From assembly GCA_013694685.1 (NCBI GenBank), contig JACDBY010000198.1, forward strand, positions 1-11,860: DNA of 11,860 nucleotides. The letters run 5' to 3'. This document shows, piece by piece, positions 1-11,860 of the stretch. The notes below the pieces were generated by a model. That model did not search any database and was not told the DNA's origin. It worked only from the letters and a program-made list of their open reading frames with translations. Each line of letters opens with the position of its first letter. Position 1 is the stretch's first letter. Both the position numbers and the translations under genes were made by a program. Source of the stretch: Actinomycetota bacterium (GTDB lineage: Bacteria > Actinomycetota > Thermoleophilia > Gaiellales > Gaiellaceae).

Positions 1-1950
1 GTGCTAGGTCCGGACGGCCCGTTCACGATGACGGGCGAACCGGTGCTGACCGCCGAGCCGTCCTGGGCCGGCCAGCCGATCGCCGCGGTCGCGGCGGACA
101 CGCTCGAGGCGGCCGCAGCCGCGCTCGTTGCGCTCGCGCCCGAGCTCGAGACCGTGGCGCCGCTCGAGCTCGACACGGGGCTCGAGGAGCAGCGCTTCAC
201 GGAGGAGCCCGAGGAGAAGCTGCGCGGCGATCCCGACGCGGCGCTCTCCGAGGCCCACGTCAGGGTCGAGCTCACGTGCGAGACGCCGGCGCACGTGCAG
301 ACGCCGCTCGAGCCGCATGCGGCCGTCGCTCACTGGGAGGGCGACTCCCTCACCGCCTGGGTCTCCACCCAGGGGATCTTCGACGCACGCCGCGAGCTCG
401 CGCGTCGCTTCGGCCTGCAGAACGAGCAGGTCAGAGTGTTGGCGGAGTTCATCGGCGGTGGCTTCGGCGGGAAGCAGGGCGCAGGGGTCGAGGCCTTGCT
501 TGCGGCGGAGCTCGCTCGCGCGTCGGGTCGCCCCGTCCGGCTCGCGCTTTCCCGGCACGAGGATCAGATCGTCGGCGGTCGGCGCGCGCGGACACGCCAG
601 ACGGTGACGCTCGGTGCGCGCCGCGACGGCACGCTGACCGCGGTCGAGCTCGCCGCGGTGGTCGACATGGGCGCGGGTGGCTGGGTCTTCCCCGTCGGCG
701 AGCCCGCACTCTCGCTCTACGCCTGTGCCAACGTCCGCGCGATGGTCTTCCCCGTGCGCACGAGCCTGCGGGCGCAGAACGCGTTCCGCGCCCCGGGCGT
801 CGTCGAGGGCGTGACCGTGCTCGAGCAGGCGATGGACGAGCTTGCGGTGGCGCTCGACCTCGATCCGCTCGAGCTCAGGCGGCTAAACCACGTCGACCGC
901 GACCAGGGGTCCGACCTGCCGTACTCGAGCAAGCGGCTTCTCGCCTGCTACGACCGGGCGGCGGAGCTCGCGGGCTGGTCGAATCGCGACGTCCTCCGCG
1001 CGCTGGGAGACGACGGGCTGTTGCGGGGGATGGGCTGCGCGACCCAGATCTGGTGGGGCGGCGGTGGCCCGCCCGCGCACGCGAGCGTCCGCCTCGACGC
1101 GGACGGCCGCGCGCTCGTGACCACCGGGATCCAGGACATCGGGACGGGCACTCTGACCGCAGCCCGGATCGTCGCGGCGGAGGAGCTCGGGCTGCGGCTC
1201 GACCACGTCGTCGCCCGGGGAGGCGACACAGGCCCGAACCTCTACGCGCCCGTCTCGGGCGGCTCGATGACGACGCCCGCCGTGATGCCGGCGGTCCGGA
1301 GCGCAGCAGGCAAGGCACGCAGGGCGCTCCTCGGGCTCGCGGCCGACGTGCTCGAGATCGCGGCCGACGACCTCACGATCTCGAACGGGAGAATCGTCTC
1401 CCGCGACGGCGCTCTCGACGTCGACGTCACCGAGGTGACGGGCAAGCTCGGCAACGCGACGATCGACGGCTCGGGCACCCGCGGCCCCAACCCCGAAGGT
1501 TTCCGCGTGAACACGTTCGGTTGCCAGATCGCGCAGGTCGCGGTCGACCCGGGAACGGGTGTCGTCAGCGTGGAGCGCGTCGTCGCCGTGCACGACGTCG
1601 GCCGGATCGTGAACCCGCTCACCGCCGCGAGCCAGGTCGAGGGTGGCGTCGTCCAGGGAATCGGCTACGCGCTCAGCGAGGAGCTCCTCGTCGACCCGAC
1701 GACGGGCATGCCCGTGAACGGCCACCTCGACGACTACAAGGTGCCGACGATCGCCGATACGCCGGAGATCGTCGTCGACTTCGTCGACCGGCCGGACGAG
1801 AATCTCCCGAACCTCGGTGCGAAGGGTCTCGGCGAGCCCCCGATCGTGCCCACCGCCGCCGCGATCGCGAACGCGTTCGCGCACGCGACCGGTCGCCGCG
1901 CGGACGCGTTGCCGCTGACCCCCGCGCGAGTCCTGGAAGCCCTCGCGTGA
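1..1950 (+). CDS. Molybdenum hydroxylase large (molybdopterin-binding) subunit, xanthine dehydrogenase family, 5' partial
   Basis: This is the catalytic Mo-pterin subunit of a xanthine dehydrogenase/aldehyde oxidase-type enzyme, which hydroxylates N-heterocycles or aldehydes using water and passes electrons to [2Fe-2S] and FAD partners. The 649 visible residues contain the family landmarks: GGGFGGK (152-158), AFRAPG (261-266), GIQDIGTGT (376-384), HDVGRIVNP (531-539) and GLGEPP near the end, with Glu612 as the expected catalytic base. The reading begins inside the protein (VLGPDGPF, typical of sequence about 80 residues in), so the GTG at base 1 is not the start and the N-terminal ~80-100 residues lie upstream. 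The CO dehydrogenase form I loop AYxCSFR is absent; AFRAPG points to a xanthine dehydrogenase-like enzyme. The stop TGA overlaps the GTG start of the FAD subunit. The substrate cannot be told from sequence. The family assignment is secure. Confidence 0.93.
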   Translation: MLGPDGPFTMTGEPVLTAEPSWAGQPIAAVAADTLEAAAAALVALAPELETVAPLELDTGLEEQRFTEEPEEKLRGDPDAALSEAHVRVELTCETPAHVQTPLEPHAAVAHWEGDSLTAWVSTQGIFDARRELARRFGLQNEQVRVLAEFIGGGFGGKQGAGVEALLAAELARASGRPVRLALSRHEDQIVGGRRARTRQTVTLGARRDGTLTAVELAAVVDMGAGGWVFPVGEPALSLYACANVRAMVFPVRTSLRAQNAFRAPGVVEGVTVLEQAMDELAVALDLDPLELRRLNHVDRDQGSDLPYSSKRLLACYDRAAELAGWSNRDVLRALGDDGLLRGMGCATQIWWGGGGPPAHASVRLDADGRALVTTGIQDIGTGTLTAARIVAAEELGLRLDHVVARGGDTGPNLYAPVSGGSMTTPAVMPAVRSAAGKARRALLGLAADVLEIAADDLTISNGRIVSRDGALDVDVTEVTGKLGNATIDGSGTRGPNPEGFRVNTFGCQIAQVAVDPGTGVVSVERVVAVHDVGRIVNPLTAASQVEGGVVQGIGYALSEELLVDPTTGMPVNGHLDDYKVPTIADTPEIVVDFVDRPDENLPNLGAKGLGEPPIVPTAAAIANAFAHATGRRADALPLTPARVLEALA

Positions 1951-2828
1951 CGAGCTACGTTCGCCCGGAGTCGCTCGACGACGCGCTCGTCGCCCTCGGC
2001 GAGGACGGCGCCGTGCCGATGGGCGGCGGTACCGACCTCGCGGGTCAGATCGATCGGGGCATCCGCGACCCGACGGCACTCGTCGATCTCGGCGCGTCCG
2101 GCCTCGGCACCATCGAGCAGGACGCCGACGGTCTGACGATCGGCGCAGCGGTGACGCTCGCCACGCTCGCGGAGGCGCCCGAGCTCGAGCCGTACGCCGC
2201 GGTCCGCACGGCGGCGTCGCTCGCCGCCTCGTCGCTCATCCGCAACGTCGGCACGGTCGGCGGCAACCTCTGCCAGCACACGCGCTGCTGGTACTACCGC
2301 GGCGAGGAATGGCACTGCTGGCTCGGCGGTGGAGACACGTGCTACGCGCAGATCGGCGATCACCGGAAGCACAACCTGGAGACCGGGGACTGCATCTCAG
2401 CGCACCCGTCCGACCTCGCGCCCGCTCTGGCAGCGTGTGGCGCGACCGTCGAGATCCGCTCCCGCGGCGGCGCTCGCGAGCTGCCGCTCCTCGAGCTCTA
2501 TCGGCGTCCCACGGACGAGAACCGGTCGCTGCTCGCGCTCGAGCCAGGGGAGCTCGTGGTCGCCGTAAACCTGCCCGGCCCGCCGGACGCTTCCGCCTAC
2601 GAGCGCGTCGGTGAGCGTGCCGCTTTCAGCTTCCCGCTCGTCTCGGTCGCAGCCGCGCGTCGCGGCGACGAGACGCGTCTGGTTGCCGCCGGTGTCGCGA
2701 ACATCCCGCGGGAGCTCGACACCGGCGACCCGCTCGCCGGCCTGCCCGGCAATCCGCAGACCCTCTGGAAGCGGACGCTCCTCGCGACGCTCGCCGACCG
2801 GGCGCTCGCAGCCGTCACACCGTCGTAG
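1947..2828 (+). CDS. Molybdenum hydroxylase FAD-binding (medium) subunit with extra four-cysteine segment
   Basis: This 293-residue protein is the FAD-carrying electron-transfer subunit partnering the upstream Mo subunit (CoxM/YagS-type FAD-binding domain, then a short CO dehydrogenase flavoprotein C-terminal domain from about residue 185). The FAD-binding signatures GGGTDL (26-31) and NVGTVGGNL (100-108) are intact. Between them and the conserved AHPSDLA (152-158) lies a cysteine-rich insert, C114-x9-C124-x7-C132-x16-C149. It resembles the region carrying an additional [4Fe-4S] cluster in the periplasmic aldehyde oxidase PaoB/YagS; cluster binding here is inferred. The GTG start is chosen because it overlaps the stop of the previous gene (GTGA) and gives the normal N-terminus (SYVRPESLDDAL). 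The [2Fe-2S] subunit is not downstream, so it is presumably upstream of the window. A hairpin follows directly after the TAG stop. Confidence 0.92.
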   Translation: MTSYVRPESLDDALVALGEDGAVPMGGGTDLAGQIDRGIRDPTALVDLGASGLGTIEQDADGLTIGAAVTLATLAEAPELEPYAAVRTAASLAASSLIRNVGTVGGNLCQHTRCWYYRGEEWHCWLGGGDTCYAQIGDHRKHNLETGDCISAHPSDLAPALAACGATVEIRSRGGARELPLLELYRRPTDENRSLLALEPGELVVAVNLPGPPDASAYERVGERAAFSFPLVSVAAARRGDETRLVAAGVANIPRELDTGDPLAGLPGNPQTLWKRTLLATLADRALAAVTPS

Positions 2829-2857: not shown

Positions 2858-4012
2858 TTACGCCGCGGTCGTGACCGCGAGGATGCTCGCCAGGTGCGCC
2901 AGCCGGAAAGCGCCGCGCTGGGCCCGGCCCCGATCGACGTCGCCGTCCGTCTCGGACGCGAGGCTCCAGAGGTCCTGTGTCGCGACGAGGAGCTCGCGAA
3001 TCTGGTCGGTCGCGGCCCGGTGTCCGTTCGAGCGCTCGTCACACGCGTTCAGCGCGAGCCCGATCACCCCGAAGTCGTCGGACGGGTGGCGGAGCCAGAG
3101 CATCGCCGAGGCCATGGTCAGGTACTGGTGGATCCGCAGGAACGTGATGGGGTGCGAGAGCTCGGTCGGGCCGGTCGGCGCGGTCGGCGCGATCGGCTTC
3201 TCGCCGTCGGCGATGCGCGCGGCCGTGTCGTGCAGCAGGCAGCGAAGCTGCCCGTCGTCGAGCCCCGACGCTCGCGCGGTGCGGACGGTCATGAGCAATG
3301 AGTTCGGCTGCCGTCCGTAGGGGTAGTCGGAGGCGTAGACGATCTGCTCGGGCGGGACGAGCCGGTAGAGGTCGAGGAGGTCGAGCGGGCTCCAGACCGA
3401 GGTGTCGAAGAACACCCCGGGACGTCCGGCGAAGTTCTCCGCCAGGGCGGCCAGGTCGATGATCCCGGCGTGGGCGATGATCAACGCCGGCGGCTCGTGC
3501 CGGGAGACGAGGCGGGCGAGCGAGTCGGCGATCGGCGGCAGGCCACGACCGCCGTGGATGAGGATTGGCACGCGCCGGTCGGCGGCGAGCTCGAACACCG
3601 GCTCGAGCCGCGGGTCGTCGGGCAGAAACCGCTGGGCCCGGGGGTGGAGCTTGACGCCGCGCGCGCCGAGGTCGATGCACCGCGTGGCCTCCTCGATCGG
3701 CGACTCGTCGAGGTCGAGCCGGACGAACGGGATCAGCTCGCCGCTCGCCGCCGCCGCGTGGTCGAGTGTCCGCTCGTTGGCGGCGGTGAAGCAGGGGTGC
3801 CGGTCGGGCTCGTCGAGGCAGAAGACGTTCGACCGCGTGATCCCGTACGCGCGCTGGATACCGAGGAGCTCGTCCCGGTCGCCGATCATCCCGTCGATGT
3901 CGGCGCCGAGATGAGTGTGCGCGTCGAAGACCGGTGTGTCGCGCGGGAGCTCGGCACGTGCGAGCGCTGCGTACTGCTCGAGCAACCCGTTCGCCCGGTC
4001 GATGGCGTCCAC
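2858..4012 (-). CDS. Amidohydrolase-family (Amidohydro_2) metal-dependent hydrolase with C-terminal helical extension
   Basis: This 384-residue protein has a TIM-barrel amidohydrolase domain over about residues 26-270. Expected metal-site residues are visible: the FDAHTHLG motif (His32, His34), VKLHP (121-125), IHGG (His153), IIAHAG (His181) and YASDYPYG (Asp229). Such enzymes hydrolyse or decarboxylate small cyclic or carboxylic compounds; the substrate is unknown. After the barrel comes a short Pro/Thr linker (residues 275-283, encoded by a 9-nt tandem repeat) and about 100 mostly helical residues that do not resemble the standard domain. The GTG start at 4012 is chosen because the conserved fold begins about 25 residues later and a TAAACT promoter-like box lies exactly 7 nt upstream; no Shine-Dalgarno is visible. 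It lies 88 nt downstream of the oxidoreductase gene on the same strand and may be transcribed with it or from its own promoter. Confidence 0.87.
   Translation of the reverse strand: MDAIDRANGLLEQYAALARAELPRDTPVFDAHTHLGADIDGMIGDRDELLGIQRAYGITRSNVFCLDEPDRHPCFTAANERTLDHAAAASGELIPFVRLDLDESPIEEATRCIDLGARGVKLHPRAQRFLPDDPRLEPVFELAADRRVPILIHGGRGLPPIADSLARLVSRHEPPALIIAHAGIIDLAALAENFAGRPGVFFDTSVWSPLDLLDLYRLVPPEQIVYASDYPYGRQPNSLLMTVRTARASGLDDGQLRCLLHDTAARIADGEKPIAPTAPTGPTELSHPITFLRIHQYLTMASAMLWLRHPSDDFGVIGLALNACDERSNGHRAATDQIRELLVATQDLWSLASETDGDVDRGRAQRGAFRLAHLASILAVTTAA
3164..3199 (-). repeat. 9-nt tandem repeat encoding a Pro/Thr linker
   Basis: On the plus strand, ggtcgggcc, ggtcggcgc, ggtcggcgc and gatcggctt follow one another without gaps. 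Read on the minus strand they encode a PTAPTGPT-like linker between the amidohydrolase barrel and its C-terminal extension. Such short in-frame repeats can change copy number by slippage without breaking the frame. Confidence 0.6.
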
Positions 4013-4019
4013 GCGTTCG

Positions 4020-4025
4020 AGTTTA
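4020..4025 (-). promoter_or_regulatory. Candidate -10 box (TAAACT) for leaderless amidohydrolase transcript
   Basis: TAAACT on the minus strand fits the actinobacterial TANNNT -10 pattern and is followed by 7 nt and then the GTG start. Transcription would begin at or next to the start codon. The box lies in the least GC-rich stretch of the window (about 4013-4060), as expected for a promoter. No convincing -35 element is visible. Confidence 0.5.
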
Positions 4026-4057
4026 GGTGCGATTCGTATTGATAGAAGCTTCCCAAC

Positions 4058-4110
4058 CCGCGAGAACTGCAGCGTTAGCGCGTCGCATTTCTCGCGGCTA
4101 CTAGGCCGCG
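4058..4110 (-). promoter_or_regulatory. Two overlapping, mutually exclusive hairpins after the oxidoreductase gene
   Basis: Hairpin A pairs CGCGGC (4093-4098) with GCCGCG (4105-4110) around the TAG stop of the oxidoreductase gene. Hairpin B is a perfect 9-bp inverted repeat, CCGCGAGAA (4058-4066) with TTCTCGCGG (4089-4097), separated by 22 nt. Both use bases 4093-4097, so only one can form at a time. Neither is followed by a T-run in the direction of transcription. They could act as terminator, attenuator or 3'-end stabiliser; the sequence alone does not decide. Confidence 0.5.
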
Positions 4111-4817
4111 CCGAGCAGACGTTCGACGAAGACCGCCTCCGGCACCGACCCGGCCCACGCGTACCGTCCGTCGACGACGATCGCGGGAACCGCGCGCACC
4201 CCGTGGCGCTCGGCCTCGACCGCGAACTCCGACGCCTCGATGCCGCGTGCGGTGATGCGGGGCGATGCGAGCGCGAGCCTCGTCGCCAGCAGCACGGCCG
4301 GCGGGCAATGTGGTCAGGTCGGTGTGACGAAGACGTCGATCGCGACGTCCCGGTCGAGCTCGGTGACGCGGTCGAGAGTCGCGACCGAGAGCCCCGGCTC
4401 GGCGCGTCCGGCCTCGATGATCGCTCCGACGAGCGTCGCGAGCTCGTAGCCGGCGGGCATCCCGAGGTAGAGGAGACCGACGCCCGTCGGGCCTGCGATC
4501 GTCGTCCGCGGCCACGGCCCCGCTTCCTCGTGCTCGAGCACCGCCAACCGCACGATGCCTTCGTGCGAGTCTCGAGGCCGATCGCCGGCCGACGTCGTAC
4601 CAGCCTGTTGCAAGCGCCCGAGAGCGCACACTGCCTCGACGATCGCGCGGGTCGCCGCGTTCGTGTCGAGCTCGCGACCGCCGGCGGCAAGAAGCGTCAC
4701 CGGTGCGGCCGACGGGCCGAGCTCGAGGGTTACCGCGACATCGCGCTCGAGCGCGGCGAACGCGTCGCGGATCGTCGACTGCTCGTGGTCGCCGAGGATC
4801 GGGAGAGCCGCGCTCAC
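4101..4817 (-). CDS. Putative selenoprotein: PDO/glutaredoxin-like double-thioredoxin-fold oxidoreductase with in-frame TGA (Sec168) in a UPHC motif
   Basis: Read through one TGA at 4314-4316, this gene encodes 238 residues matching the two-thioredoxin-fold protein disulfide oxidoreductase family (also like the AhpF N-terminal domain). The first domain (to about residue 135) includes GVGLLYLGMPAGYE (112-124 region), typical of PDO. The second starts at DVAIDVFVTPT (157-167), and there TGA stands in place of the first redox cysteine, followed by Pro169-His170-Cys171-Pro172. The cis-proline loop RAVPAIVVDG (208-217, Pro211) and the normal C-terminus follow in frame with no other damage. A SECIS-like hairpin sits just after the TGA. 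I infer selenocysteine at 168. The first domain has lost its CXXC, so UPHC would be the only redox centre; Cys64 is the only other cysteine. Its role would be cytosolic dithiol/disulfide or peroxide-linked reduction. GTG 4817 overlaps the carboxypeptidase stop (GTGA), so translation is probably coupled. Alternatives are a nonsense mutation or a base error. Confidence 0.82.
4284..4303 (-). promoter_or_regulatory. Candidate bacterial SECIS element
   Basis: Counting the T of TGA as base 1, bases 14-20 (CGCCGGC) pair with bases 27-33 (GCUGGCG), seven pairs including one G-U. They enclose a six-base loop CGUGCU (21-26). The loop carries G22-U23, almost the same place as the G23-U24 that SelB reads in E. 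coli fdhF. The loop begins 17 nt after the TGA and has a G in its first two bases; both agree with the bacterial SECIS consensus as I recall it (16-37 nt spacing, G in the first two loop positions). The hairpin lies wholly inside sense codons 172-178 of the oxidoreductase. SelB binding is inferred. Confidence 0.65.
4314..4316 (-). other. In-frame TGA, probable selenocysteine codon
   Basis: The TGA sits between ACC (Thr167) and CCA (Pro169), exactly at the N-terminal redox position of a thioredoxin-fold CXXC. It differs from a Cys codon by one base (TGC or TGT). It is the only interruption in the 239-codon frame. Confidence 0.78.
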
Positions 4818-6298
4818 ACGGCCAGGGCGGCGCTCTTCTCACGCAAGTACGCGAGGTACGGCTCGGGGTCGATCGTCGGCGAGCCGGCGAGCCGCTCGAT
4901 CGTCTCCTTGGGCGTCAGCTTCCGACCGAGCGCGTAGAGGTTGTCCCGCAGCCAGTCGGAGAGCGGCAGGGGATCGCCGGCCGCGAGCTGGGCATCGAGA
5001 TCGGGCAGCGCCTCGCGCACGACCCGCCAGAATTGGAGCGAGATGACATTCCCGAGCGCGTAGGTCGGGAAGTACCCGAGCGCGCCGCCCGACCAGTGGA
5101 CGTCCTGCAGGACCCCACGCGCGTCGTCCGGCACGTCCACGCCGAGGAACTCCTTCATCCGCGCGTTCCACACGTCGGGCAGATCCTCGAGCGCCACGGC
5201 TCCTTCGAGGAGCTCCTGCTCGAGCTCGAAGCGCAGGATGATGTGGAGGCTGTAGGTCGTCTCGTCCGCATCGACCCGGATCAGACCCGGCTCGGCCCGG
5301 TTGATCGCCCGCACGAAGTCGTCGAGCTCGACGGAGTCGAGCGACGGGAACGTCTCCTGCAGCGGCTTGTACCAGTGCTCCCAGAAGGGTCGGCTCCGCC
5401 CGACGAGGTTCTCCCACGTCCGGCTCTGCGACTCATTCACGCCGAGCGAGGGAGCGCCGGAGAGCGATGACCGGGTGAGGCTGTCGGCGTTGCCGTGCGC
5501 GTAGAGCCCGTGCCCCGCCTCGTGGAGCGACGACCAGATCGACTCGAGATCGTCCGGCTGATAGCGGGTCGTGAGCCGGACGTCACGGTTCGAGAACGAC
5601 GTGCAGAAGGGGTGTGCCGTCCGGTCGAGCCGCCAGGTCTCCTCCTCGAAGCCGAGGGTCGCGAGCATCCGCTCGCCGAGCTCGCGCTGCTTCTCGGGCG
5701 GGAAGTTGCCGGTCAGGAACGACGCGTCGACCTCGGGCGCGGACGCGACGATCTCGGTCAACGCGGGCCGGAGGACGGCGAACACCTCGCGCACCTCGGT
5801 CGTCTGCATCCCCGGCTCGAAGTCGTCGAGCAGCGGGGTGTACGGGCTGTCGGACCACTCGAAGCAGTCGACGTACTGCCGGCGCAGCTCGAGGTTGCGC
5901 CGCAGGTAGGGCAGGAAGGACGCGAAGTCGCTCGTTCGCCGCGCTTCGACCCAGGCGTGGTGGCCGCGGGCGGCTTCGCGCGTCATCTCCGTGCGGAGCT
6001 TCGTCGGCACCCGCCGGGCCTTCTCCCAGTCACGTCGGGTGACGCGGACGAGACTGCGGTCGTCCGAGTCGTACGGAAGCTTCTCGACGAGAGGCTCGCA
6101 TGCGTCCAGCAGCCGTCCGACCTCGTCGTCGACGAAGCGCTCGTGGGCGATCCGGCCGAGCGTCGCGAGCTGCTCGGCGCGCGCCTCCGTGCCGCGCGAC
6201 GGCATCGTCACACGTTGATCCCAGCCGAGCACGCCAGCCGCATGCCGCAGGTCTGCGCCCTCAGCCAGCCGGACGCGAAGCTCGTCGAGCGGTCCCAC
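4814..6298 (-). CDS. M32-family metallocarboxypeptidase (carboxypeptidase Taq type)
   Basis: This 494-residue cytosolic zinc carboxypeptidase, close to the usual ~500, removes C-terminal residues from peptides. The family motifs appear in order: HPF (229-231), DVRLT (239-243, DxRxT), HEAGH (259-263, zinc ligands His259 and His263 with catalytic Glu260), NESQ (288-291), IRVDAD (340-345) and GVLQDVHW (395-402). The fourth motif is normally HES/GQ; here the histidine is asparagine (codon AAT), while the following glutamate, the expected third zinc ligand, is kept. GTG 6298 is chosen because it gives the family-typical N-terminus (DELRVRLAEGADLRHAAGVLGWDQ region) and has a TAGGCT box 8 nt before it. 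The open frame continues upstream but those residues look non-coding. The TGA stop overlaps the GTG start of the oxidoreductase by 4 nt. A divergent aminopeptidase gene lies 202 nt away. Confidence 0.92.
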   Translation of the reverse strand: MGPLDELRVRLAEGADLRHAAGVLGWDQRVTMPSRGTEARAEQLATLGRIAHERFVDDEVGRLLDACEPLVEKLPYDSDDRSLVRVTRRDWEKARRVPTKLRTEMTREAARGHHAWVEARRTSDFASFLPYLRRNLELRRQYVDCFEWSDSPYTPLLDDFEPGMQTTEVREVFAVLRPALTEIVASAPEVDASFLTGNFPPEKQRELGERMLATLGFEEETWRLDRTAHPFCTSFSNRDVRLTTRYQPDDLESIWSSLHEAGHGLYAHGNADSLTRSSLSGAPSLGVNESQSRTWENLVGRSRPFWEHWYKPLQETFPSLDSVELDDFVRAINRAEPGLIRVDADETTYSLHIILRFELEQELLEGAVALEDLPDVWNARMKEFLGVDVPDDARGVLQDVHWSGGALGYFPTYALGNVISLQFWRVVREALPDLDAQLAAGDPLPLSDWLRDNLYALGRKLTPKETIERLAGSPTIDPEPYLAYLREKSAALAV

Positions 6299-6306
6299 CG
6301 GCGTGC

Positions 6307-6312
6307 AGCCTA
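6307..6312 (-). promoter_or_regulatory. Candidate -10 box (TAGGCT) for the carboxypeptidase operon
   Basis: TAGGCT on the minus strand lies 8 nt before the GTG start of the carboxypeptidase gene, in the same arrangement as three other genes here. A leaderless transcript would cover the carboxypeptidase and the oxidoreductase. An alternative pair, TTGCAT (6389-6394) and TAGGAT (6364-6369), has a rather long 19-nt spacer and would give a leadered transcript. Confidence 0.42.
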
Positions 6313-6429
6313 GAGAATCGAGTGGCCGCTCGTAGGGGCACCCCAACCCACCACCCGCTGCGAATCCTATCGAGATCGTTGTCCGAGAATGCAACGGATC
6401 TGTGCCAATCGTGTGCCATCTCAGCGCCG

Positions 6430-6459
6430 ACGTCTGGGCCTCATGAAGGGGCCAGACGT
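6430..6459. promoter_or_regulatory. Inverted repeat in the divergent promoter region (possible operator)
   Basis: ACGTCTGG (6430-6437) and CCAGACGT (6452-6459) form a perfect 8-bp inverted repeat with a 14-nt spacer that itself holds a small CCT/AGG stem. It lies upstream of the predicted aminopeptidase promoter within the 202-nt divergent region (6299-6500). It could be a regulator binding site or an RNA hairpin on a longer transcript. Confidence 0.4.
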
Positions 6460-6465
6460 GCTCTC

Positions 6466-6478
6466 GTTCTGCGAGAAC
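6466..6478. promoter_or_regulatory. 13-bp palindrome over the expected -35 region (possible operator)
   Basis: GTTCT-GCG-AGAAC is a perfect palindrome with a 3-nt centre. It ends 9 nt before the TAGGGT box and so covers where a -35 element would lie, a usual place for a repressor site. It is not a LexA box, whose actinobacterial form is GAAC-N4-GTTC, the opposite half-site orientation. Confidence 0.38.
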
Positions 6479-6487
6479 CTCGTCGAG

Positions 6488-6493
6488 TAGGGT
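6488..6493 (+). promoter_or_regulatory. Candidate -10 box (TAGGGT) for leaderless aminopeptidase-acs transcript
   Basis: TAGGGT fits TANNNT and is followed by 7 nt (TGCGCCT) and the GTG start of the M24 gene. No Shine-Dalgarno is at the usual spacing. No clear -35 hexamer is visible. Confidence 0.5.
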
Positions 6494-6500
6494 TGCGCCT

Positions 6501-7657
6501 GTGCCGAACGTCCTTCTGATCGGCGACACCATTCGGTCGACGGATCTGCGGCACGCAGTGCCGGTCGAGATCGGCGATCCCTTCCGGTACGCGGAGCTCG
6601 AAGGTCGCCGTGTTGCCGTGGTCTGGAGCGTCGAGGGCGATCGGATCACCGCCGTCGACCCCGGGATCGAGATCGTCCCGGCCGAGACCTTTCCGGCCGA
6701 CGACCTGATCCGCGATGGGGCCGACATCTACGAGATCCCGCTCGTCCAGACGGTGAGGATCGCGAAGGCGCTCGGGTTGCGCGAGGCGATCGTGCCGCGG
6801 GGCTTCCCGCTGGGGCACGCGGACGCCCTCCGCGCGGACGGCGTCGAGCTCCACGTCGACCAGCGTGCGTTCGACGACCGTCGCCGCCGCAAGACCGCGC
6901 AGGAGCTGGACGGCATCCGCGCGGCGTCGCGGGCGGCCGAGGCGGGAATGAGCGCGATCGTCGACCTCCTCACCCGATCGGAGCCCGGCGATGGCGGCCG
7001 TGCCGTCGACGGCGAGCCGCTGACGTGCGAGCTCCTCCAGGCGGCGGCGATCGAGAAGTTCGGCGAGCACGGCTGCCGCGGCGACGACCTGATCGTCGCC
7101 CGCGGGCCGCAGGCGGCCGACGGTCACGACCGAGGCTCGGGACGGCTCGCGAACGACGACGTCCTGGTGTGCGACCTCTTCCCGCGCCACGGCGAAAGCG
7201 CGTACTTCTCCGACATGACGCGCACCTTCGCTGTCGGCTCGCCCGACTCCGAGATCGCGACGTGGCACGAGCAGACACTCGAGGCGCTCGAGCTCGCGCG
7301 CGGGCTCGCCCGGGCCGGCGTCAACGGCGGCGCCGTGCATCGCGCCGTCTGCGCGTTCTACGAGGAGCGCGGCCATCCCACGCAGATGTCGGTGCCCGAG
7401 GGGACGGTGCTGCGGGACGGCTTCTACCACGGTCTCGGTCACGGTGTGGGGCTCGATGTGCACGAGTCGCCGTCGCTCGGCAAGATCGGTCACGAGCTCG
7501 TCGTCGGTGACGTGATCACCCTCGAGCCGGGTCTCTACCGGCACGGCTTCGGCGGCGTCAGGCTCGAGGACACGCTGCTCGTCACCGAGGACGGTGTCGA
7601 GACGATCACCGAGTTCCCGTACGACCTCGACCCGACCCGGACGCTCGCCGCAGCTCG

Positions 7658-7661
<4 letters not shown>
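6501..7661 (+). CDS. M24-family metallopeptidase, Xaa-Pro aminopeptidase-like
   Basis: This 386-residue protein has a shortened creatinase-like N-terminal domain (about 1-130) and a pita-bread catalytic domain (about 135-380). All five dinuclear-metal ligands expected for M24 are present: Asp225 (VLVCDLFP), Asp238 (YFSDMTRTF), His314 (GLGHGVGLDVHE), Glu342 (ITLEPGLY) and Glu356 (GGVRLEDT). His209 and His321 match the conserved substrate-site histidines. It probably removes N-terminal residues before proline or cleaves dipeptides in the cytosol. Related M24 enzymes include prolidase and creatinase, so substrate is not fixed. The GTG start follows a TAGGGT box by 7 nt. The stop overlaps the ATG of the acetyl-CoA synthetase gene (ATGA), so the two are co-transcribed and probably translationally coupled. 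Confidence 0.9.
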
Positions 7662-9607
<1,946 letters not shown>

Positions 9608-9612
9608 CCCCC

Positions 9613-9636
9613 GAGGCGTGGCTTCAGCCGCGCCTC
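9613..9636 (+). terminator. Strong hairpin terminator after acs
   Basis: GAGGCGTGGC (9613-9622) pairs with GCCGCGCCTC (9627-9636) in a 10-bp stem with one G-U and a TTCA tetraloop, beginning 6 nt after the acs stop. On the opposite strand the G-U becomes a C-A mismatch, so it is tuned for the plus-strand transcript, though it may also stop the opposing decarboxylase transcript, whose last codons it overlaps. There is no T-tract. Confidence 0.72.
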
Positions 9637-11003
9637 AGCGCCCTCTCGAACACCGCAACCGTCCGCTCGACGTCCTCCTCCGTCGTCCGCCAACTCGAGA
9701 CGGAGAGCCGGATCGCCGGGCGCCCGTCCCAGGTCGTCCCGCTCATCCAGGCTTCGCCGCCGTCCTGCACGGCTGCGAGCGCGCGCGTGGTCGTGGCGTC
9801 GTCAACGAACCGGAAGAGCACCTGGTTGAGGACGACGTCGTTCAGCACCTCGCAGCCTGGTAGCCCGGCGATGCGCCCGGCAAACGCGCGAGCGTGATCG
9901 CAGCAGCGCTCCACGAGCTCCGTCACACCTGAGCGGCCGAGCGAGCGGATCGCCGCGTACACGGGCACCGAGCGTGCGCGGCGCGAGAACTCGGGCCCGT
10001 AGGCCAGCGGCTCGCGCCCCTCCGACTCGTCGACCTGGACGAGGTACGAGGCGGTCGCGCTCATCGAGCGCCGATGAGCGGCGGGATCGGCGCAGAAGGC
10101 GATCCCACAGTCGTACGGGACGTTCAGCCACTTGTGCGCGTCCGTCGCCCACGAGTCGGCGCGCTCCACGCCGGCGACGAGTTGCCGGAAGCGCGGGCTC
10201 GTGCCGGCCCAGAGCCCGAAGGCGCCGTCGACGTGGAGCCAGGCACCCGCCGCCTCGCAGGCGTCGGCGACCGCCGGGAAGTCGTCGAACGAGCCCGTGT
10301 TCACCTCCCCCGCCTGCGCACAGACGATCGTCGGGCCGTCCGCCTCGGCGAGCACGCCCGGGAGAAGCCCGGCCAGCATGCGCCCCTGACCGTCGCAGGG
10401 AACGAGCCGCACCTGATCCGCCCCCACACCCAGCAGCCGCAAAGCCCGGTCGACGGTGACGTGCCGCTTGTCGCCCGCCACGATCCGCAGCGCGGGGCCG
10501 CCCTGGAGCCCGCGCTCACCGACACTCCAACCGGCGCGGTCGAGCACGGTGTCGCGCGCGACGGCGAGCGCTGTCGTATGCGCCATCTGGCAGCCCGTGA
10601 CGAAGGCGAACGAGGCGGCGTCGGGCAGGCCGAGGAGCTCACGCACCCACCTGCCGGCAGTCTCCTCGATCACGGCCGCTGCGGGTGTCGGGAGGAGGAG
10701 GCCCGCGTTCTGGTCCCAGGCCGAGACGAGCCAGTCGGCGGCGAGGGCCGACGGGAGGGTGCCGCCGATCACGAACCCGAAGTAGCGTCCCGAGCCCATG
10801 GATGTGAGCCCTGGCTCGGCGTCGCGCGCGAGCGACTCCACGACCTCGCGGTCGGGTGTCGGGCCTTCCGGCAAGGCTCCGCCGAGCGTCTTTCTGAGCT
10901 CCGCGACCGTCGCCCGGGCGGGAATCGGCCGTTCGGGTGCGGACGCGACCCAGTCCGCCGCGAGCTCCGCCGCTCGAGCGAGCACCTGAGCCTCGTCGTT
11001 CAC
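9624..11003 (-). CDS. PLP-dependent decarboxylase, aromatic-L-amino-acid decarboxylase (group II) family
   Basis: This 459-residue fold-type I PLP enzyme belongs to the group II decarboxylases (aromatic amino acid, glutamate, histidine, diaminobutyrate). Visible features are the N-terminal substrate-side segment GSGRYFGFVIGG (70-81), the cofactor-phosphate region FVTGCQMAHTTAL (134-146), HVDGAFG (257-263) with Asp259 expected to bind the pyridine nitrogen, and DAHKWLNVPYDCG (288-300) with Lys291 as the Schiff-base lysine. It is likely to make an amine and CO2 from an amino acid; the specific substrate is not predictable, and some homologues are aldehyde synthases. The GTG start follows a TAGACT box by exactly 7 nt and the stop of the upstream membrane protein by 10 nt. 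The gene ends inside the hairpin shared with acs. Confidence 0.9.
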   Translation of the reverse strand: MNDEAQVLARAAELAADWVASAPERPIPARATVAELRKTLGGALPEGPTPDREVVESLARDAEPGLTSMGSGRYFGFVIGGTLPSALAADWLVSAWDQNAGLLLPTPAAAVIEETAGRWVRELLGLPDAASFAFVTGCQMAHTTALAVARDTVLDRAGWSVGERGLQGGPALRIVAGDKRHVTVDRALRLLGVGADQVRLVPCDGQGRMLAGLLPGVLAEADGPTIVCAQAGEVNTGSFDDFPAVADACEAAGAWLHVDGAFGLWAGTSPRFRQLVAGVERADSWATDAHKWLNVPYDCGIAFCADPAAHRRSMSATASYLVQVDESEGREPLAYGPEFSRRARSVPVYAAIRSLGRSGVTELVERCCDHARAFAGRIAGLPGCEVLNDVVLNQVLFRFVDDATTTRALAAVQDGGEAWMSGTTWDGRPAIRLSVSSWRTTEEDVERTVAVFERALRRG

Positions 11004-11010
11004 GCGCAGG

Positions 11011-11016
11011 AGTCTA
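11011..11016 (-). promoter_or_regulatory. Candidate -10 box (TAGACT) containing the upstream stop codon
   Basis: TAGACT on the minus strand is followed by 7 nt (CCTGCGC) and the decarboxylase GTG. The first three bases of the box are the TAG stop codon of the membrane protein gene. This would give the decarboxylase its own leaderless transcript even if it is also read through from upstream. Confidence 0.45.
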
Positions 11017-11860
11017 CGTTCGACCCCGCGTCCGCCTTCCTGTCCGACCCCCGTGTCCGACCCCGTGTCCGACTTCAGTCGGACACGTGCTCTTCTCGTC
11101 TCGGCGTAGGGCCAGGGCAGCCGCGGCGGCGAGGGCGAGGACGACGAGCCAAACGGGCTCCGGCCGCGGCTCGAGGGCCGAGGGAATCTTCCAGCCGACC
11201 CAGTCACGCTTGACGAGCTGCTCGTTCCACGCGTCCTGGACGAGATTGACCGCGCCGTAGGCGAACGCGAGCGCCAGGTACAGGCGGGTCACCGTCGCGA
11301 GTCGCCCCGGGGTCAGGCGGACGCGAGTGAGGAGGAGCGCGCTCGCGACGAGGAGCGTTCCGTCGAGACCGTGGTGGTGGCCGAGATGGACGGCGGCGAG
11401 CACCGTCCCGTCGGGCTCGACACCGCGGCGCTCCATGATGAAGACCCCTTCGGCGAGGTAGAAGCCGAGCTCGGCCGCGAGCCACGGGATCGAGCCGAGG
11501 AGGGCAAGGACGCCGACACCGAGCCGGAGCGGGTCTAGCGGCAGTCGCGGCGCGAACCCGGTGCCGGCCCGGCGGCGGGCAGCCAGCGTCAGTCCCAGGG
11601 CGAGCAGGACGCCGAGCGCCGGCAGGGCGTTCACCGGGCGCGCATCGAGGTCGGCCTGGTCGACGACTCCCGGCCAGGCCGTGACCGCGCAGAGTGCGAT
11701 CGCCGGCGCGCCGACGGTCCAGGCGCGGCGTCGAAGCGTCTGCATCGCGACGAGCACGAGCGCGATCGCGACGAGCGAGATCGGGAAGTTCGAGACGACG
11801 AGCGCCCGCGAGAGACCGCCCGCAAGCCCGTCGCGCGACACGTGATAGAGCTCGGCCGGC
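11014..11860 (-). CDS. Multi-pass membrane protein of unknown function, probably 5' partial, with repeat-derived tail
   Basis: I do not recognise the family. The visible ~281 codons show about seven hydrophobic segments (counting from the GTG at 11841, near residues 13-33, 41-60, 71-87, 106-128, 155-172, 182-202 and 226-245), so it is an integral membrane protein. A His-rich motif HLGHHHGLDG (about 152-161) sits just before the fifth segment and could bind metal or haem, but this is speculative. The frame is open to the window edge (residues ELYH precede the GTG at 11841) and reads as protein-like, so the true start may be outside; GTG 11841 is the fallback. The last ~25 residues (Gly/Arg/His-rich, after KSTCPTE) are encoded by a tandem repeat and hairpin rather than ordinary coding sequence. 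The decarboxylase follows 10 nt after the stop, suggesting an operon. Confidence 0.72.
   Translation of the reverse strand, partial: PAELYHVSRDGLAGGLSRALVVSNFPISLVAIALVLVAMQTLRRRAWTVGAPAIALCAVTAWPGVVDQADLDARPVNALPALGVLLALGLTLAARRRAGTGFAPRLPLDPLRLGVGVLALLGSIPWLAAELGFYLAEGVFIMERRGVEPDGTVLAAVHLGHHHGLDGTLLVASALLLTRVRLTPGRLATVTRLYLALAFAYGAVNLVQDAWNEQLVKRDWVGWKIPSALEPRPEPVWLVVLALAAAAALALRRDEKSTCPTEVGHGVGHGGRTGRRTRGRT
11018..11078. repeat. Degenerate 12-nt tandem repeat, about five units
   Basis: Units starting with GTCCG (or GTTCG) run at 11018, 11030, 11042, 11055 and 11067, with core GTCCGACCCCGT. The units at 11042 and 11055 are nearly identical, and the two nearest the decarboxylase have diverged. 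The array encodes the tail of the membrane protein and ends next to the decarboxylase -10 box. Confidence 0.7.
11064..11087. repeat. Perfect 10-bp hairpin at the end of the tandem repeat (REP-like or terminator-like)
   Basis: CGTGTCCGAC (11064-11073) and GTCGGACACG (11078-11087) form a perfect stem with a TTCA loop. Its left arm is the last unit of the 12-nt repeat, so repeat and hairpin appear to be one composite element. It lies inside the 3' end of the membrane protein gene. It may be a dispersed palindromic repeat; the rest of the genome is needed to tell. Confidence 0.65.

Follow-up and report, generated by a model that had tools for sequence, protein, structure and literature searches.

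A probable one-site selenoprotein derived from the protein disulfide oxidoreductase family in the Gaiellales

The window, which is the whole stretch of 11,860 nucleotides that was analysed, contains a gene on the minus strand with a GTG start at position 4817 and a TAG stop at 4103-4101 (gene limits 4817 to 4101). When TGA was read as selenocysteine (Sec, U), the gene formed one frame of 238 residues. The read-through translation has a single U at residue 168, encoded by a TGA at 4316-4314 (minus strand), in the context FVTPT-U-PHCPPA. The lone in-frame TGA at the first position of a C-P-H-C motif, on which the sequence-only reading was built, was therefore confirmed. The standard code splits the same gene into open reading frames of 167 and 64 residues, as that reading had also stated. 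The N-terminal part (4317-4817, minus strand; 167 residues) holds a first domain without CXXC in the alignment, and it had no Pfam match by itself. The C-terminal thioredoxin domain (4113-4343, minus strand) carries the UxxC motif and an AVPAIV stretch, and it was matched by Thioredoxin_3 (Pfam PF13192) at residues 159-235 of the read-through protein with 52.1 bits. The frame ends at residue 238, and no flavoprotein domain is fused to it.

The start of the gene and the stop of an M32 carboxypeptidase gene share 4 bases. The neighbouring genes in the window (1-1950 and 2858-11207) encode a molybdenum hydroxylase large subunit, an amidohydrolase, the M32 carboxypeptidase, an M24 peptidase, an acetyl-CoA synthetase, and a PLP-dependent decarboxylase. 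The ten relative loci that were read preserve this order in part, and each of them, like the window, has an Amidohydro_2-type gene no more than about 4 kb away; genes for the molybdenum hydroxylase, the acetyl-CoA synthetase, and the M24 peptidase are often near in relatives, and the M32 carboxypeptidase gene adjoins the selenoprotein gene in the genus only. No small redox partner genes were seen near the gene in the window's genus with a simple ORF picker (at least 100 aa), which could miss small ones. ARAGORN also called a tRNA-Val(gac) at 2189-2282 (minus strand). A long open frame on the opposite strand encloses it, and the call was set aside as a probable false positive.

The read-through protein was used as the query against 129 genomes of the order, and 20 of them matched. 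The codon is spanned by 18 loci in 18 genomes, the window included; this set excludes partial matches in G079 and G009 and second pieces in G060 and G110, which do not extend across the codon. All 18 loci contain exactly one TGA, at VTPT-U-PHCPPAVLLA, and the sequence downstream of it is conserved in frame. The frame is thus kept past the TGA over the full Thioredoxin_3 domain, as had been claimed from the window alone. Random disruptions in relatives would have counted against the Sec assignment, and no stop other than the TGA codon was found inside the order and class matches.

Cys homologues were found as well. In the protein database, 620 of 8000 scored candidates matched, and the best 120 of the 620 were listed (119 without the window's own). 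Among these 119 listed homologues, 86 end exactly at [VI]TPT, 32 continue (31 with Cys, 1 with Trp), and 1 has no motif. A database protein ending at VTPT was taken as a TGA stop, the stop codon itself being absent from the database record. The suspicion that automatic annotation misses this gene was borne out by the 86 truncated entries. Two of the database homologues are unusual. In P0004, Trp stands in place of Sec (VTPTWPHC), and the tree puts this protein among the U-type rows; the Trp may be the product of gene calling that reads TGA as Trp. P0013, a protein of 189 aa, misses the VTPTxPHC stretch and keeps both flanks, perhaps through a gene-calling or assembly artefact.

The same TGA was also found outside the order. 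The class search (399 genomes, 29 matches) identified it in a genome of another family (L120). Seven class loci have no stop; TGC was read in five of them, and L123 and L124 gave no motif match. Two loci came from the scan of a genome collection: L001 in the relative G061, and L002 in an uncultured Acidobacteria MAG, which has TGA at this codon. The phylum search (396 genomes, 33 matches) found 13 genomes in which the match covers most of the profile and contains one TGA: three from the window's family and ten from three other actinobacterial families. The TGA was placed at the codon in all of these ten, nine by the motif search and the tenth (L145), which the motif missed, by separate reading. 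The phylum loci L159, L160, L162, L166, and L169 gave no motif match, and G569 is a weak partial match with one TGA. Cys occupies this position in the stand-alone protein L146 and in the long frames of the phylum set whose motif was read; these Cys-bearing long frames are presumed to be AhpF. Homologues with Cys at residue 168 and others with TGA at the same codon, which the sequence-only reading had proposed to look for, were therefore both found. TGA at a redox position together with Cys homologues at the same residue is one mark of a bacterial selenoprotein, and the gene shows it.

A bacterial SECIS is a hairpin just 3' of the UGA with a G in the apical loop. The order loci contain a hairpin of this type. 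In the window it lies at 4284-4303 (minus strand), with a 7-bp stem, a 6-nt loop (CGUGCU), and 17 nt between the UGA and the loop. It covers the 11th to the 30th nt after the UGA and has a stability of -11.4 kcal/mol; 0 of 300 synonymous shuffles were as stable. Of the 18 order loci, 17 share this value, the window among them, and one has -9.0 kcal/mol. Per order locus, 0 (window) to 8.7% of the synonymous shuffles were as stable, with many loci at 4 to 9%. The corresponding range was 37.7 to 91.7% in five Cys control loci, which come from other families with other residues and are not Cys members of the window's branch. Another Cys locus, L146, also contains a hairpin, with a stem of 5 bp and a raw stability of -7.2 kcal/mol.

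Codon usage in the hairpin is strongly restricted. Codons +4 to +10 (PPAVLLA) read CCG CCG GCC GTG YTG CTG GCG, with five of the seven columns identical in 18/18 loci and the others in 15/18 and 17/18. GTG and CTG are used here, though the pooled genes prefer GTC and CTC (pooled GTG 0.35, CTG 0.24). Outside the hairpin, only those of Tyr, Glu, and Ile are conserved sense columns that use one codon throughout. Within the window's branch the stem is too invariant for covariation to be judged, and the Acidobacteria row is the one source of any such signal. Covariation was therefore set aside, and the hairpin argument in this branch was built on synonymous constraint.

The folding results were mixed. 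RNAfold, applied to the 48 nt after the UGA, placed the hairpin in the lowest-energy fold in only 10 of the 18 order loci, including the window; another fold scored lower in 8/18 and in L120. The fraction of shuffles as stable was 1.7% for L120 (0 with its own codon usage) and 6.0% for L002 (2.0%). In L002 the hairpin geometry is maintained and the loop again begins with CGUG; the stem differs by one compensatory pair and by a G-U pair replaced with A-U. In family f29, the hairpins of seven loci do not stand out from the shuffles (7.8 to 58.2%). Shuffles with own codon usage gave 18.4% for L143 and 11.6% for L144, which are weak, and 3.0% for L145. In these three loci both partners of two stem pairs have changed, one pair occurring as U-A, G-C, and C-G, and L143 and L144 encode identical residues in the stem region. 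In the covariation control for L143-L145, which is a weak one with three sequences, 22 of 500 shuffles scored as high, and 46 of 500 did so for pair changes on both sides.

For the selenium machinery, matches to selA were found in 82 of the 129 order genomes, selB above the cut-off in 73, and selD above the cut-off in 102. Within the genus, selA is present in 5/7 genomes, selB in the same five members, and selD in 6/7; all three genes occur in five of the six same-genus relatives. ARAGORN identified tRNA-SeC(tca) in 4/4 loci given to it, of 30 fetched, and two of the four are in the genus. A 5-kb stretch contains selA, selB, and tRNA-Sec in each of G061 and G057. Rfam put tRNA-Sec over the cut-off in 105/129 genomes, an inflated count because other tRNAs score about 46-52 bits. 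Among the genomes with the gene, selA is present in 14/18, and at least one of selA, selD, or a tRNA-Sec of at least 58 bits is present in 17/18, the exception being the window's own. The association of the gene with selA across the order was not significant (14/18 vs 68/111, p 0.20).

Other candidate selenoproteins were found in these genomes. Fdh-alpha matches with one in-frame TGA occur in 5 of the 6 other genus genomes; four of these five matches are below the family cut-off, and the TGA was counted without its position being read. G060 has an additional Fdh-alpha copy without TGA, and G061 has a partial Fdh-alpha match without a stop. The selD match of G005, G007, G009, G012, and G016, which belong to another family of the order, contains a single in-frame TGA, and SelD may itself be a selenoprotein in these genomes.

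The window's own genome is a draft that is 86.7% complete and consists of 493 contigs. No selA was found in it, no selB or selD above the cut-off, no tRNA-Sec above the cut-off (best 46.7 bits vs 47), and no Fdh-alpha at E 1e-100. The search for sel genes suggested by the sequence-only reading thus succeeded in close relatives and failed in the genome itself. That reading had named the lack of these genes in a complete genome as evidence against Sec, which is not the situation here since the genome is a 493-contig draft. For incompleteness to explain this, the assembly would have to lack two places, that of selA-selB-selC and that of selD. In G062 of the same genus, selA, selB, and a tRNA-Sec above the cut-off were likewise not found, and selD and an Fdh-alpha match with TGA are present; this is the pattern that a missing contig would give.

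These data bear on three other explanations of the TGA. The codon may be a true stop, either because the gene is a pseudogene or contains a sequencing error, or because the 167-residue product is functional. Gene calling does end the protein there in most of the listed homologues. However, the recurrence of the TGA in 18/18 order loci and the conservation of the downstream domain ruled this out, the matches have no further stop, and the Cys homologues read through; its probability is close to nil. A different possibility is that Sec is right for the family and that decoding has been lost in this species, so that the gene is a relic. The failure to find selA, selB, selC, selD, and Fdh-alpha in the own draft genome (G000) would agree with such a loss. 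Against it, the gene is intact with one TGA, its hairpin is the same as in the relatives, the genome is a draft, and G062 shows a comparable gap while retaining selD and the TGA-containing Fdh-alpha match. A relic is thus improbable.

The UGA might also be recoded by a tRNA with a UCA anticodon as Cys or another residue instead of Sec. The missing sel genes of the own draft genome could be read in this way, and so could the Trp of P0004, though gene calling may explain the latter. Such recoding is very improbable in view of the tRNA-SeC(tca) identified by ARAGORN in 4/4 loci (two of them in the genus, near selA and selB) and the one-TGA Fdh-alpha matches of the genus. The synonymous constraint at the SECIS-like hairpin also fits SelB-dependent insertion. 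Sec at codon 168, as proposed by the sequence-only reading, is therefore strongly supported at the sequence level by the TGA conserved across species, the Cys homologues, the hairpin under synonymous constraint, and the sel genes in close relatives. Confidence in Sec is slightly lowered by the lower-scoring alternative folds in 8/18 loci and the below-cut-off Fdh-alpha matches. Taken with the protein comparisons below, the gene very probably encodes a selenoprotein in which UGA codon 168 is Sec, a one-site oxidoreductase derived from protein disulfide oxidoreductases (PDO).

The relationship to PDO was compared with family models and known structures. The best NCBIfam family of the window protein is TIGR02187 (PDO_seleno_TRX), with 138.2 bits and E 2.3e-40, short of the 185-bit cut-off. 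The seven further branch rows that were scored also stay under 185: 145, 149, and 155 bits for TGA rows, and 143, 146, 153, and 179 bits for Cys rows. The non-branch TGA rows (four rows from other actinobacterial families and the Acidobacteria row) score 218 to 261 bits. The four actinobacterial rows among them have a first-domain CXXC (CETC, CISC, CEYC, and CEFC), and the Acidobacteria row has only ETC. No N-terminal CXXC was found before the UxxC in any of the 132 branch rows (100 taken as Sec, 31 Cys, 1 Trp). This count and the tree used 14 of the 18 order loci (L007, L014, L016, and L020 were left out), 13 of them with a fixed stretch of at most 143 residues upstream. The lost first-domain CXXC may explain the low TIGR02187 scores of the branch, and the UxxC would be the only redox site left in it.

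In the PDB, the Pyrococcus PDO 1a8l is the best match to both the window protein (E 1.1e-21) and the alignment profile (E 3.4e-39). The likeness consists of the FVTPTCPYCP context and the C-terminal domain, whereas the window protein differs by Sec in place of Cys and by the missing first CXXC; the single-sequence alignment spans residues 103-237 only. The N-terminal domains of AhpF come next in the profile search (1zyn, E 2.9e-21; 1hyu, E 2.1e-20). AhpF has likewise lost the first CXXC and kept the second. The window protein resembles this domain in the profile, but it is a stand-alone protein without the AhpF flavoprotein domain, and the AhpF family model gave 58.9 bits against a cut-off of 502.9. 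According to PMC7465337, a PDO consists of two thioredoxin folds, each with a CXXC. The window's branch retains only the second site, and its scored rows are below the family cut-off; the protein is a derived PDO relative and not a full PDO. The initial label of PDO-like therefore holds for the best structural match and the best family, and not for the first active site or the family score.

Selenium forms of the PDO family have been published since 2006. In the 2006 survey (PMC1794560), two Sec forms are given, from Carboxydothermus hydrogenoformans and Symbiobacterium thermophilum, the latter placed under Actinobacteria. Four Sec sequences of the family are described from Asgard archaea in PMC11227280. 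The window protein shares the best family and the UxxC motif with the known Sec forms, but the eight scored rows of its branch have 138-179 bits, below 185, and the branch has no N-terminal CXXC. The view that a PDO-type Sec protein is unusual in actinobacteria was thus correct only in part, given these published forms and those found here in other actinobacterial families. In searches of an open-access library, no naming of this protein from Gaiella or Thermoleophilia was found. As far as these searches show, the kind of protein is already known, and the branch without the first active site is not described in the open-access literature.

The following mechanism is proposed. tRNA-Sec and SelB would decode the UGA at codon 168, assisted by the downstream hairpin. 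The selenolate would attack a substrate disulfide, Cys171 would resolve the intermediate, and re-reduction might be carried out by an NADPH-dependent flavoprotein of the thioredoxin-reductase type. The most likely role would be that of a thiol/selenol-disulfide oxidoreductase with one active site. In the Sulfolobus solfataricus PDO, as reported in PMC7465337, the C-terminal site has thiol-transferase activity and the isomerase activity needs both sites. By analogy, the protein is predicted to donate electrons to partners such as peroxiredoxins or redoxin-domain proteins, without acting as an isomerase. The same source states that PDOs are found only in thermophiles; relatives of the window gene, if they are mesophiles, would not fit this distribution.

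One candidate partner was found in the sister genus g32: a second candidate selenoprotein, in which a YNCE beta-propeller is fused to a redoxin domain. It matched in 11 of the 129 order genomes at E 1e-30, with one in-frame TGA in 11/11. In the three loci read, the TGA is at the first position of WUGPC (FFASW-U-GPC): L179 (5643-7052, minus strand), L177 (5641-7164, minus strand), and L176 (2679-4103, plus strand). In five of the 11 genomes the fusion match and the PDO-like match share a strand and are separated by 9 to 29 nt (the PDO-like match of G111 being partial); in two the distance is about 900 nt, in two they are on different contigs, and in the other two no PDO-like match was found. 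A term search of one review gave no mention of 'propeller' or 'NHL'. This arrangement of genes suggests that the PDO-like and propeller-redoxin proteins may work together. It is conceivable, though doubtful, that the branch represents a one-site selenium relay without the N-terminal site, in which electrons pass between two selenoproteins in the sister genus.

Sec and Cys appear to have been exchanged repeatedly in this branch. In a quick tree built from the N-terminal part, with 135 rows and only 141 columns, which is a small number for a set of this size, at least 8 exchanges were counted by parsimony, 4 of them forced by well-supported branches. In summary, these proteins would form a large group of selenoproteins, most of them misannotated, in actinobacteria that have received little study, with 86 of the 119 listed homologues cut at the active site. 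Through the repeated exchange, the branch would offer a natural series in which the advantage of Sec over Cys can be compared within one enzyme. From the loss of the N-terminal site, a shift from an isomerase-type to an electron-transfer function is predicted.
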